Source: [Candidatus Thermochlorobacteriaceae] bacterium GBChlB (GTDB lineage: Bacteria; Bacteroidota; Chlorobiia; Chlorobiales; Thermochlorobacteraceae). From it: a DNA stretch of 64,000 bases. Under the pieces are notes generated by a model. That model was given only the letters and a program-made list of their open reading frames with translations. It was not told the origin of the DNA and did no database searches. How positions within the stretch are numbered: the first letter of the stretch is position 1; every line of letters begins with the position of its first letter. Location of the stretch: positions 1-64,000 of the forward strand of contig JPGV01000009.1 in assembly GCA_000724175.1 (NCBI GenBank), in the 5' to 3' direction. The position numbers were made by a program, and so were the translations under genes. This document shows, in pieces, positions 19,181 through 23,940 of this stretch.

Positions 19181-19351
19181 TCAAGCGCCTTCTTTTTTCT
19201 TTTTGCCTTTTTTCTTTTCCATCTTCTTCTCGGCTTTTGAGCTGTCGGAAACGACGGTTTTATCATCGTTTAGCGATACAGCTTTCGAAGTCGAGCTAAC
19301 GGCAAAGAGGCTGATGCAGCCAATAATTACCGCGAGGAGTGCGCGTCTCAT
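19181..19351 (-). CDS. small exported Lys-rich protein
   Basis: A 56-residue protein starting at the ATG at 19351, chosen because AGGAG stands 7 bases before it on the minus strand. Residues 1-24 form a signal peptide (MRRALLAVIIGCISLFAVSS, then TSKA). The mature part is about 30 residues, first acidic and then almost only Lys, Glu, Gly and Ala (KAEKKMEKKKGKKKKEGA). I know no family for it. Short cationic secreted peptides are seen near the cell envelope in many Bacteroidetes; binding to lipopolysaccharide or nucleic acid is possible but unproven. It has its own terminator and ribosome binding site, so it is likely expressed. Confidence 0.65.
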   Translation of the reverse strand: MRRALLAVIIGCISLFAVSSTSKAVSLNDDKTVVSDSSKAEKKMEKKKGKKKKEGA

Positions 19352-19503
19352 GATATTTCTCCTGTGATAGTTTGTGATTGTGATTGTTATCTTTTCGGCA
19401 CGAGGACTGATTGCCGAATTGACATCAAGATAAAACACTTCTTGGCTCATTTGCAATTTTTCGGCGGTTAAGAAATCTGCTTGAAAAGAGGCGAAACTTT
19501 GCC

Positions 19504-19534
19504 TTTGAAAGTCAGCGATGCAAGCGTATATTTA
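19504..19534 (+). promoter_or_regulatory. promoter of the metK leader
   Basis: TTTG at 19504-19507 and TATATTTA at 19527-19534 lie exactly 19 bases apart, one of the best Bacteroidetes-type promoters in the window. Transcription would start near 19540, about 200 bases before metK. The 150 bases between this promoter and the small gene at 19351 hold nothing else that I can name. Confidence 0.6.
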
Positions 19535-19540
19535 CGCCCT

Positions 19541-19737
19541 GTTTTTGACACGCCATTATCTATGGACACGGTGTCAAAAATTCGCGCTGAAAGCGTGGGT
19601 GTTTGTGAGAGAAATTTCCGTGTCCAAAACAACGTCGTCCGCACGGAAGCCTTCTCGACAAGGCTTTTTTAATTTTTTAATTCAATACACAATACCGTTC
19701 AAGTGATTTCCGTTCAACGCTAATAATACAACCATCA
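19541..19737 (+). ncRNA. structured metK leader with internal terminator, candidate SAM-related RNA element
   Basis: The predicted leader contains four stems in a row. Stem 1: TTTTTGACAC (19542-19551) with GTGTCAAAAA (19571-19580), enclosing CCAT/ATGG. Stem 2: six pairs at 19583-19597 with a GAA loop. Stem 3: TTCCGTG (19616-19622) with CACGGAA (19642-19648). Stem 4: AAGCCTT (19647-19653) with AAGGCTT (19660-19666), followed by six T, an intrinsic terminator. It overlaps stem 3 by two bases. A terminator between promoter and gene implies premature termination control. From memory, a motif called SAM-Chlorobi RNA has been described upstream of metK/ahcY operons in this phylum; this may be a member. 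I see no SAM-I core. Confidence 0.6.
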
Positions 19738-20940
19738 ATGGCAAAATACCTTTTCACATCGGAGTCCGTTTCCGAAGGGCATCCCGATAAAGTCGCCGAC
19801 CAAATTTCAGATGCGCTGCTCGATGCGTTTCTGGAACAGGATAAAAACTCGCGCGTCGCGTGCGAGACATTCGTAACGACAGGACAGGTCGTCGTCGGCG
19901 GCGAAGTTACCACTTCCGCCTACGTTGAAGTTCCCGACCTTGTGCGCAGCGTTATTGAAGACATCGGCTACACGAAAGGCGAATATATGTTCGAGTCGAA
20001 GTCGTGCGGCATTTTCTCGGCGATTCACTCGCAATCGCCCGACATCAATCGCGGCGTCGATAAAAAGACCCCGACAAAAGACAAATTCGACAGCGTCGGC
20101 GCAGGCGACCAAGGCATGATGTTCGGCTATGCGTGCAAAGAAACGCCTGAACTGATGCCCGCCGCAATTACTTACGCGCACCAACTTGTGAAGAAACTCG
20201 CTGATATTCGCAAAGAGGGCAAAGAGATGACCTATCTGCGTCCCGATGCCAAAAGCCAAGTTACGCTCGAATACGACGGCAACACTGTCGTGCGCGTCGA
20301 CACCATCGTTGTTTCTACGCAACATGACCCTGAGCCAAAAGGCGTAACCGAAAAGCAATGGCAAGAGCGCATCAAAGAAGACACCATTGCCTGCGTTATC
20401 AATAAAGTCATTCCGAAACATCTGCTTGATAAACACACCAAGTATTTTGTCAACCCGACTGGTCGGTTCGAGATTGGCGGTCCGCACGGCGATACGGGTT
20501 TGACGGGCAGAAAAATCATCGTCGATACCTATGGCGGCGCAGCTCCGCACGGTGGCGGTGCGTTCTCCGGCAAAGACCCGTCGAAGGTCGACCGCTCTGC
20601 TGCTTACGCCGCACGGCACATCGCCAAAAATGTCGTCGGTGCCGGGCTTGCTGAAAAATGCACTGTGCAAGTCTCTTATGCCATCGGCATCGCGCGTCCT
20701 GTTTCCATCTATGTCAATACGCACGGCACTGGCACCAGCGACGTGAGCGACGCGGAATTGAAAGAAAAAGTCGAAGCAATTTTTGATTTGCGCCCAGCAG
20801 CCATCATTGAGCGGTTTGGGCTTAATAAACCCAAAGGCTGGCGTTATCAAGATACCGCTGCCTACGGACACTTCGGACGAAACATTTTCCCTTGGGAAAA
20901 ATTAGACAAGGTGAAAGACCTTCAGCGCGCGTTTAAATAA
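19738..20940 (+). CDS. metK: S-adenosylmethionine synthetase
   Basis: A 400-residue enzyme of normal length. Signature motifs are [20 protein letters not shown] at the N-terminus (ATP-binding His in GHPDK), [12 protein letters not shown] near residue 120, and [22 protein letters not shown] near residue 265, the P-loop-like segment. It makes SAM from methionine and ATP in the cytoplasm. It heads a putative operon: 15 bases later comes the aspartyl-protease-like gene and then ahcY, so synthesis of SAM and removal of its by-product SAH are coupled. Expression is probably controlled by the leader at 19541-19737. SAM is heavily used in bacteriochlorophyll methylation. Confidence 0.97.
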
Positions 20941-20955
20941 AACCGTTAGGAACGC

Positions 20956-21375
20956 ATGGGCGACGTGGTTGTCAAAATCAAGTTGGAAAATTATGCGATT
21001 GCCGAAGCCGTCAAAACTGGCTTGGCGAAGCGCGATGTTCCGAGTATCGATGTTGATGCCGTTGTGGATACGGGCGCACGTATGCTTGCCATTCCCGAAG
21101 ATTTGGCGCGTGCGCTCGAACTGGCCCGTGTCCGACAAACCAACGTCATTTATGCCGCCGGCACACGCGCCATGCGCGACATCGTCGGCGCGCTGACCGT
21201 TACCTTCGGCGACCGCAGCGCCACGCTCGATGCAATCGTCCTGCCGAAAAGCGCGGAAACGCTGTTGGGACAAGTCCCGCTTGAAGTGTTGGATTTGCTC
21301 GTCGATTGCAATACCCAAACGCTGGTTCGCAACCCAAAATCGCCCGACGATAAAACGCTCTATACCTTGTATTGA
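20956..21375 (+). CDS. retropepsin-like aspartyl protease-family protein
   Basis: A 139-residue single-domain protein of the clan AA aspartic protease type. The active-site motif is VDAVVDTGARMLAIP near residues 35-49, with Asp-Thr-Gly-Ala as in retropepsins, and a second hydrophobic strand pair VGALTVTFGDRSATLDAIVLP. Single-domain members would act as dimers. Bacterial proteins of this group are poorly studied; a protease role is plausible but not shown. The gene sits between metK and ahcY with 15 and 40 base gaps, so it is probably co-transcribed with them. Whether it takes part in the SAM cycle is unknown. The start ATG at 20956 is preceded by a weak AGGAA. Confidence 0.72.
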   Translation: MGDVVVKIKLENYAIAEAVKTGLAKRDVPSIDVDAVVDTGARMLAIPEDLARALELARVRQTNVIYAAGTRAMRDIVGALTVTFGDRSATLDAIVLPKSAETLLGQVPLEVLDLLVDCNTQTLVRNPKSPDDKTLYTLY

Positions 21376-21415: not shown

Positions 21416-22735
21416 ATGGCAACAGCAACTGAAACCAAACGCCTTCCTTACAAAGTGAAGGACATCGCGCTCGCCGAATGGGGACGCAAAGAAATTAGAC
21501 TCGCCGAAGCCGAGATGCCCGGCTTGATGCAATTGCGCAAAGACTATGGCGCGCAGAAACCGCTTAAAGGCGCACGCATCGCCGGCTGCCTGCACATGAC
21601 GATTCAAACCGCCGTCTTGATTGAAACGCTCAAAGAATTGGGCGCAGAAGTCTCGTGGTCGTCGTGCAATATCTTTTCAACACAAGACCACGCGGCGGCG
21701 GCTATCGCCAAAGCGGGCATTCCCGTCTATGCGTGGAAAGGCATGAACGCCGAAGAATTTGATTGGTGCATCGAGCAAACCTTGTTTGCCTTCGAGGACG
21801 GCAAGCCGCTCAACATGATTCTCGACGACGGCGGCGACCTGACGAACATGGTTCTCGATAAATATCCCGAACTCATCGCCGGCATTAAAGGCATTTCGGA
21901 AGAGACGACAACGGGCGTGCATCGCTTGTATGAACGCCAAAAGAACGGCAAGCTCCCGCTTCCGGCCATCAACATCAACGACAGCGTTACGAAGTCGAAA
22001 TTCGATAACAAATACGGCTGCCGCGAGTCGCTCGTCGATGCCATTCGTCGCGGAACAGACCTGATGCTCTCCGGCAAGGTCGCGGTTGTGGCAGGTTTCG
22101 GCGACGTCGGTAAAGGCTCGGCAGAGTCCTTGAAGAACGCTAACGTGCGCGTCATCGTTACCGAAATCGACCCAATCTGCGCCCTCCAAGCCGCAATGGA
22201 AGGCTACGAAGTCAAGAAGATGGAAAACGCCGTCAAAGAAGCTGACATCATCGTAACGGCGACGGGCAACGAGGACATCGTTACCGAAAAGCACTTCCGC
22301 TTGATGAAAGACAAAGCCGTCGTCTGCAACATCGGTCACTTCGATACTGAAATCGATATGGCATGGCTCAATAAGAACTATGGGCATACCAAAATGGAAA
22401 TCAAACCGCAGGTTGACCTCTACACGATTGACGGTAAAGACATTATCGTGCTTGCCGAAGGTCGATTGGTTAATCTTGGCGTGGCGACCGGACACCCGTC
22501 TTTCGTGATGTCGTGTTCATTCACAAACCAAGTGATTGCTCAAATGGAGTTGTGGCAACATTCGGACAACTACGAAAACAAAGTCTATATGCTGCCAAAA
22601 CATCTCGATGAGCAGGTCGCGCGCTTGCACCTTGCAAAACTCGGCGTCGAGCTTGACGAACTTACACCGAAACAAGCAGCATACATCGGTGTCAAAGAGC
22701 AAGGCCCGTTCAAACCGGAATACTACCGTTACTAA
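21416..22735 (+). CDS. ahcY: adenosylhomocysteinase (SAH hydrolase)
   Basis: A 439-residue enzyme. Family landmarks are [17 protein letters not shown] near residue 60, the catalytic DDGGDLTN region near 140, [16 protein letters not shown] near 190, and the NAD-binding [18 protein letters not shown] near 225. The C-terminus FKPEYYRY is universal in the family. It splits S-adenosylhomocysteine into adenosine and homocysteine and so relieves inhibition of methyltransferases. As last gene of the metK unit it is followed by a strong terminator. Many bacteria use the Pfs/LuxS route instead; the present choice is typical of Chlorobi. Confidence 0.97.
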
Positions 22736-22791: not shown

Positions 22792-22878
22792 GCGCGCCGC
22801 CGTTGTTTACGCGCAAAGAGTCCGCGCCATTGAGCGGCTCTAAATCGTTTGTGCAGAAATTTAAATCGCGGTCGTGCG

Positions 22879-22886
22879 TATCTTTG
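22879..22886 (+). promoter_or_regulatory. TAnnTTTG box before asd
   Basis: TATCTTTG at 22879-22886 is a full -7 match. The nearest TTTG lies 27 bases upstream, longer than usual, so only the -7 box is convincing. It lies 26 bases before the asd ATG. Confidence 0.45.
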
Positions 22887-22911
22887 CACTTTGAACTTCA
22901 AATCATTTTAT

Positions 22912-23940
22912 ATGTCGTTCGGATATTCGGTTGCTGTGCTTGGTGCAACGGGCATGGTAGGACGCACAATGCTCCAAGTTCTTGAAGAGCGTCGGTTTCC
23001 CGTGAGCCGCCTTGTGGCGCTTGCGTCGGAAAAATCGGTTGGACAAACCATAGAGTTCAATCACCGCACTTATCGCGTCGCTGCGCCGTCCGCCGAGTCG
23101 TTCAAGCACGTTGATATTGCGCTCTTTTCAGCAGGCGCGTCGACGAGCAAAATCTGGGCAGCGGTCGCTGCCGAACAAGGCGCTGTTGTGATTGATAATT
23201 CGTCGGCTTTTCGTATGGACGAGGGCGTGCCGCTCGTTGTGCCGGAAGTCAATGCGGAGAAGATTTTTATCAACGGACGCGCCGCCTCGATTATCGCCAA
23301 TCCGAATTGCTCGACGATTCAAATGGTGGTTGTCTTAAAGCCCTTGCACGACCGTTACAAAATCAAGCGCGTCGTTGTCTCGACCTATCAATCGGTTACT
23401 GGCAAAGGCAAGCAGGGTTTGGAGGCGTTGGAGCGCGAAATTGCTGGCGAAAAATTTGAGACCTACACACATTTTCAGCCAATTGCGTTCAATGTCGTTC
23501 CGCAGGTCGATGTGTTCACCGAAAACGGTTACACAAAAGAGGAAATGAAACTCGTCAATGAAACGAAAAAAATCTTGGGCGACGAGTCCATTATGGTCTC
23601 GCCGACGACCGTGCGCGTGCCTGTTTATGGCGGACATAGCGAATCGGTCAATCTTGAATTTGAGCGCGAGTTCAACATCGAGGAGGTTAAAAAACTGCTC
23701 GCTTCATCGGAGGGTGTGGTTTTGAAAGACAATCCCGCCGAGCAACTTTACCCGACGCCGATTGAGTGCTATGGACGCGACGAGGTGTTTGTTGGCAGAG
23801 TGCGGCGCGATTTATCCCAGCCGAAGAGCCTGAATTTGTGGATTGTTGCCGACAACCTGCGCAAGGGCGCAGCGACGAATGCAGTTCAGATTGCAGAGAA
23901 ATTGGTCGGCACGCTCAAACCGAAAGCGCAGTTGGATTAG
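22912..23940 (+). CDS. asd: aspartate-semialdehyde dehydrogenase
   Basis: A protein of 342 residues from the ATG at 22912 (MSFGYSVAVLGATGMVGRTM). Landmarks are the NADP-binding GATGMVG, SAGASTSKIWA near residue 71, the catalytic Cys in IANPNCSTIQMVVVL near residue 130, and the GGHSESVNLEF segment near 240 with the substrate-binding His. It reduces aspartyl phosphate to the semialdehyde for lysine, methionine and threonine synthesis, so it also feeds the metK pathway. The first ATG is preceded by a promoter box at 22879. The last 26 bases overlap the 3' end of the convergent histidine kinase gene. Confidence 0.95.
   Translation: MSFGYSVAVLGATGMVGRTMLQVLEERRFPVSRLVALASEKSVGQTIEFNHRTYRVAAPSAESFKHVDIALFSAGASTSKIWAAVAAEQGAVVIDNSSAFRMDEGVPLVVPEVNAEKIFINGRAASIIANPNCSTIQMVVVLKPLHDRYKIKRVVVSTYQSVTGKGKQGLEALEREIAGEKFETYTHFQPIAFNVVPQVDVFTENGYTKEEMKLVNETKKILGDESIMVSPTTVRVPVYGGHSESVNLEFEREFNIEEVKKLLASSEGVVLKDNPAEQLYPTPIECYGRDEVFVGRVRRDLSQPKSLNLWIVADNLRKGAATNAVQIAEKLVGTLKPKAQLD

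Follow-up and report, generated by a model that had tools for sequence, protein, structure and literature searches.

The leader of the metK-ahcY operon in the window (the whole 64,000-nucleotide stretch of DNA analysed) is, judged by its sequence, an additional member of the known orphan RNA family SAM-Chlorobi (RF01724), and it probably acts as a co-transcriptional attenuator controlling the activated-methyl cycle. Within the family of the window, the predicted element precedes both metH and metK-ahcY, and the elements therefore cover metH, metK and ahcY, three SAM-cycle enzymes. The genome that contains the window belongs to the order Chlorobiales; its family also includes Candidatus Thermochlorobacteriaceae and Ca. 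Thermochlorobacter aerophilum contigs. Coordinates of the features are given in Table 1.

Table 1. Features of the metK-ahcY leader and operon in the window, and the metH-leader copy in the same genome
Feature	Position	Strand	Details and evidence
Promoter TTTG-N19-TATATTTA	19504-19534	+	Bacteroidota/Chlorobiota type; TTTG 19504-19507, TATATTTA 19527-19534; from sequence
P1 stem-loop, 10 bp	19542-19580	+	TTTTTGACAC 19542-19551 / GTGTCAAAAA 19571-19580; MFE fold; covariation
SAM-Chlorobi RNA (RF01724), full-length model match	19546-19627	+	cmscan 48.2 bits, gathering cut-off 35, E 5.8e-6 for the window
P1a, inner stem of P1, CCAT/ATGG	19553-19556/19562-19565	+	MFE fold; covariation
Alternative (pseudoknot) helix, 5' strand TGGACACGG	19563-19571	+	Complements 19618-19626
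P2 hairpin CGCGCT-GAA-AGCGTG	19583-19597	+	Arms CGCGCT 19583-19588 / AGCGTG 19592-19597; MFE fold
P4, antiterminator-like hairpin	19609-19656	+	19615-19623/19641-19649 plus GAGAA/TTCTC 19609-19613/19652-19656; MFE fold; partner-swap test
Third stem TTCCGTG/CACGGAA	19616-19622/19642-19648		Extends to 9 pairs in the MFE fold
Alternative (pseudoknot) helix, 3' strand CCGTGTCCA	19618-19626	+	Also within the P4 5' arm
Intrinsic terminator GGAAGCCTT-CTCGAC-AAGGCTTTT, T run after	19645-19668	+	Terminator search; relatives
metK, methionine adenosyltransferase	19738-20940	+	TIGR01034, 561 bits, cut-off 309
139-aa clan AA aspartic-protease-like ORF, between metK and ahcY	20956-21375	+	TIGR03698, 54.2 bits, just under cut-off 57.35
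ahcY, adenosylhomocysteinase	21416-22735	+	TIGR00936, 638 bits, cut-off 498
metH-leader copy, window's own genome	G000:C25:17602-17697	-	Rfam 25.1 bits, cut-off 35

Since 2010, SAM-Chlorobi has counted as an orphan candidate, with fitting genes, no ligand found and no mechanism in the accessible papers. In the searchable text of Weinberg et al. 2010 (PMC2864571), the RNA is located before metK/ahcY operons of the phylum and strong promoters are noted, its status as a switch is rated "?", and in-line probing of several constructs found that neither SAM nor SAH was bound. A regulon study of 2013, which covered 11 Chlorobiales genomes, lists 11 sites for SAM-Chlorobi in its accessible text (PMC3766115). 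No ligand is demonstrated in the searchable main-text literature on SAM-Chlorobi or RF01724.

To establish which family the leader belongs to, we ran an Rfam scan. The first-pass annotation had named SAM-Chlorobi as a lead, proposed a covariance search and seen no SAM-I core. The covariance-model score, over the gathering threshold, bore the lead out, and the match took in model positions 1-87 of 87; apart from one tRNA, there were no other Rfam matches in the window. SAM-I indeed stayed below its gathering score, and none of the SAM-II, SAM-III, SAM-IV, SAM-V, SAH and SAM/SAH riboswitches exceeded the gathering threshold in the window. The sole SAM-type match at E<=10 within 19200-19900, to SAM-V on the opposite strand, was rejected as sub-threshold (18.8 bits against a cut-off of 41). 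As in the published description of the family, the element occupies the 5' UTR of a metK and ahcY operon in a Chlorobi host and has a strong promoter directly upstream, which lies exactly where it had first been placed. Among 61 non-redundant leaders (54 metK and 7 metH), 45, the window leader included, had a promoter score of at least 9 out of 10 just upstream, compared with 2.5% of shuffles. metK adjoins ahcY in those checked relatives with loci long enough to show both genes; in the relatives' loci examined, the two genes are close together and no counterpart of the 139-aa ORF was found. Following ahcY on the same strand is asd (aspartate-semialdehyde dehydrogenase, 22849-23940, +), which was likewise not found in the relatives' loci examined.

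Matches occurred in 89 out of 394 genomes sampled from the phylum, all but one in the window's order. The exception (G234, E 9e-4) was a chance match at a coding end, lacking the 3' strand and with no Met gene downstream, so the sample held no convincing member outside the order. A pattern scan of GTDB genomes recovered the full motif upstream of metK or metH in Chlorobiales; pattern matches in Firmicutes, Proteobacteria and others were discarded because neither a metK nor a metH start was seen after them, as were third weak matches in two genomes (G075 and G334, E 0.26 and 0.8) with no Met gene seen downstream. The metK leaders of two Chlorobiaceae genomes (L215 in G117 and L216 in G338) gave no motif match and retained a promoter-like stretch.

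The lead to a second copy came from sister genomes, where two weak RF01724 matches (31.5 and 32.2 bits) were each followed by a gene for methionine synthase, metH (NF007024, 2030 bits). A second SAM-Chlorobi copy proved to lie upstream of metH in 9 out of 9 genomes of the window's family, mostly missed by Rfam. To avoid circularity, we trained a model on metK leaders alone. This model recovered 8 out of 9 family metH leaders at E<1e-4, that of the window's genome among them, and gave the ninth (L202) 0.24; across the whole window genome, the metH copy ranked second (E 9e-9). The layout of this copy matches that of the metK copy. In the distant sister genome G133, the all-leader model, whose training set contained them, picked up the metK and metH copies, and the metK-only model, trained without the G133 copies, picked up the metK copy at E 2.8e-6. 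Six metH leaders from other families (f2, f3 and f4; L203-L208) held no credible match to the metK-only model; the one in L204 was partial, on the opposite strand and at E 2.2. A further metH-like gene (L209, G386:C64) sits on an N-stretched contig with the leader absent from the readable part, and it is perhaps a contaminant, contamination of G386 being 13%.

The metK-ahcY leader (19541-19737) is laid out in the order promoter, P1 with its inner CCAT/ATGG stem, P2, third stem and intrinsic terminator, and the three stems first annotated there (10 pairs with the inner stem, 6 pairs and 7 pairs) were found in place, followed by the terminator. Folding of the leader only modestly beat that of shuffles (z -2.15, 11 out of 200 shuffles equally good), and proof of the element thus rests on conservation, namely the covariation of P1 and P1a and the RF01724 match. 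We scored covariation on 30 aligned leaders. In P1 and P1a, both partners vary in 7 out of 11 pairs, 97.5% of cells are paired, and double-change cells number 44 as against 12.5 in shuffles; the covarying pairs that the first-pass annotation had suggested looking for in relatives are present. P1a variants among relatives include CCAA/TTGG and CCGA/TCGG. P2 varies among relatives in both position and sequence.

Further analysis revealed a 9-bp pairing, absent from the first-pass annotation, between 19563-19571 and 19618-19626. This alternative helix cannot form together with the inner CCAT/ATGG stem or with the third stem (P4). Its 6-bp core, GGACAC/GUGUCC, pairs in all 30 aligned leaders. L201 carries a compensatory change (GGACGC/GCGTCC), L102 and L163 have CTATGGACAC/GTGTCCATAG (10 bp) and L202 has UCUUCGGACAC/GUGUCUGAAGA (11 bp). 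Because the 3' strand tracks changes inside P1a in these four leaders, the comparison suggests that the alternative helix may compete with P1a rather than merely fill its bulge. Across the helix, both partners vary in 5 out of 12 pairs (mean of the shuffles 2.7, with 1 out of 500 as high), while double-change cells (8 versus 7.2) and the share of paired cells are no better than in shuffles; this covariation is thin because the core is nearly invariant.

The 5' arm of P4 begins upstream of CCGUGU and contains it, and P4 and the alternative helix are therefore mutually exclusive. We evaluated P4 by a partner swap in the 61 leaders. The P4 5' arm paired with its own downstream sequence at -16.4 kcal/mol on average and with that of other leaders at -13.5, and none of 2000 permutations was as low. 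Permuting within lineages left z at -7.5, or -4.6 with the invariant CCGUG omitted, compared with -2.4 for a reversed partner and -2.0 for the P2 arm as controls; part of the signal is thus relatedness, and most of it is not. Non-Chlorobiaceae families and Chlorobium-like leaders showed the effect clearly, and the nine Chlorobaculum-like leaders did not. RNAalifold found no consensus fold in the downstream region of Chlorobiaceae leaders, the gappy alignment being the probable cause.

The complete intrinsic terminator first annotated between the promoter and metK is present. A 500-base stretch held two terminator-like sites on both strands, against 0.6 expected from shuffles, and the leader part downstream of the motif yielded a terminator in 0 out of 50 simple shuffles. 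The overlap of the third stem with the terminator had been put at two bases and is larger: P4 pairs 7 of the 9 bases in its left arm. Among other metK leaders of the same family, the P4 3' arm pairs 12/14, 11/12, 11/13 and 6/7 of the terminator's left-arm bases, and in other families 13/15 and 7/8; the best duplex for P4 in L163 and in L042 stops short of the terminator. Terminators were found at the corresponding place in 12 out of 15 same-family leaders (null 3%). Chlorobiaceae leaders keep P4 and have a canonical terminator in just 5 out of 43 cases (null 3%), and all three metK leaders from one sister genus (L033, L036 and L117) lack one; the platform is therefore not universal. Chlorobiaceae leaders such as L055 and L066 also have, between P4 and the start of metK, a recurrent CAG-U5/6-CUG followed by UUGUU.

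For 19541-19680 of the window leader, nested-model estimates were -40.1 kcal/mol for the P4 fold and -38.1 kcal/mol for the alternative-helix fold, and the leader is accordingly predicted to be bistable. Forcing the terminator yielded the same structure as forcing the alternative helix, namely the alternative-helix fold. As the transcript lengthens, the predicted minimum-energy structure is the alternative-helix fold at 88 and 105 nt and the P4 fold from 110 nt. With more downstream sequence added, it shifts to a third, mixed fold (-44.1) with a partial P4 beside a shortened terminator stem, so the fold energies are a guide only. P4 has the layout of an antiterminator. The predicted anatomy is that of an intrinsic-termination attenuator, in which a mutually exclusive antiterminator and terminator lie between promoter and gene. 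The overlap of antiterminator and terminator, together with the covariation seen among relatives, thus supports at the level of sequence the earlier proposal of control by premature termination.

We propose that transcription would start just upstream of P1 and that the segment AUGGACACG could then pair either locally, giving P1 and its inner P1a, or farther downstream with the strand CCGUGUCCA, giving the alternative or pseudoknot helix. The latter strand overlaps the P4 5' arm, and the P4 3' arm covers most of the terminator left arm. With P1/P1a and P4 formed, the terminator would be prevented and metK-ahcY transcribed; with the alternative helix formed, P4 would be broken, the terminator would form and transcription would stop. 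We infer that switching takes place while transcription is under way, that it is tipped by a metabolite or protein belonging to the activated-methyl cycle, and also the direction: as a best guess, high SAM, directly or via a protein, would favour the terminator state. SAM feedback fits metK and metH most simply, and SAM as the signal is a plausible reading that falls a little short of probable. More tentatively, SAM-Chlorobi may be a SAM-cycle riboswitch class of its own, whose aptamer swaps inner P1a for a long pseudoknot and which, in the window's family, controls metH and metK-ahcY via an antiterminator. If so, the binding tests of 2010 would have failed from the wrong pseudoknot/P4 context or the wrong ligand.

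The same two folds could serve an ON switch sensing SAH (or homocysteine), in which the ligand stabilises P1/P1a and P4, averts termination and raises ahcY, metK and metH for SAH recycling. The genes with the element do form the recycling loop, and SAH riboswitches elsewhere control SAM-cycle genes according to the accessible text of PMC4239095; we consider this version unlikely, however, given that SAH was unbound in the in-line probing described in the searchable text of PMC2864571 and that no sequence feature sets the polarity. That neither SAM nor SAH binding was seen in vitro in that text would also agree with the leader RNA being the target of a protein, whether a methyl-cycle regulator or an RNA-binding protein, that picks the fold in place of a metabolite. 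A nearly invariant core, CCATTANNTATGGACAC..GTGTCC, would suit a protein site, as would confinement of the element to the order Chlorobiales, but no candidate protein was identified and the mutually exclusive folds look like a riboswitch platform, making this a rather improbable account. It is very doubtful that GGACACGG...CCGTGTCC, an inverted repeat, serves as a DNA operator with incidental RNA folding: it is near-invariant and lies downstream of the promoter, yet the spacing of its halves varies widely and the covariation of P1, P1a and P4 is that of RNA helices. Leader-peptide attenuation, with the conserved ATGGACACG as the start of a short regulatory ORF, was rejected as scarcely credible, since the window's ATG GAC ACG opens 36 codons ending in the terminator run but ORF length and end vary freely, other frames are equally open, close relatives mostly differ in length by 1 or 2 nt with no frame or length conserved, and L202 has TCG for ATG yet retains the stem pairing.

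Taking these results together, we favour the attenuator reading. Methionine synthase joins the genes that carry a SAM-Chlorobi element. One genome with metK and metH copies, each with a canonical terminator overlapping a covarying antiterminator, makes it possible to look for ligands directly, by assaying transcription termination. In the searchable main-text literature, we found no description of the metH copies, of a P4 antiterminator or of P1a competing with the 3' strand.

Many SAM-I switches are attenuators with an antiterminator and a terminator. The window leader resembles SAM-I and the other SAM/SAH families by analogy, in the leader control of SAM-cycle genes, but these have a different fold and gave no gathering-score match. 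With RF01724 it shares the metK-ahcY genes, a Chlorobiales host, a promoter directly upstream, P1 with the inner CCAU/AUGG hairpin, P2 and the 3' CCGUGUCC strand. It differs in the predicted P4 antiterminator and terminator downstream, beyond the Rfam model, and the window's genome differs from described SAM-Chlorobi cases in its extra, diverged copy upstream of metH, which falls below the Rfam cut-off.
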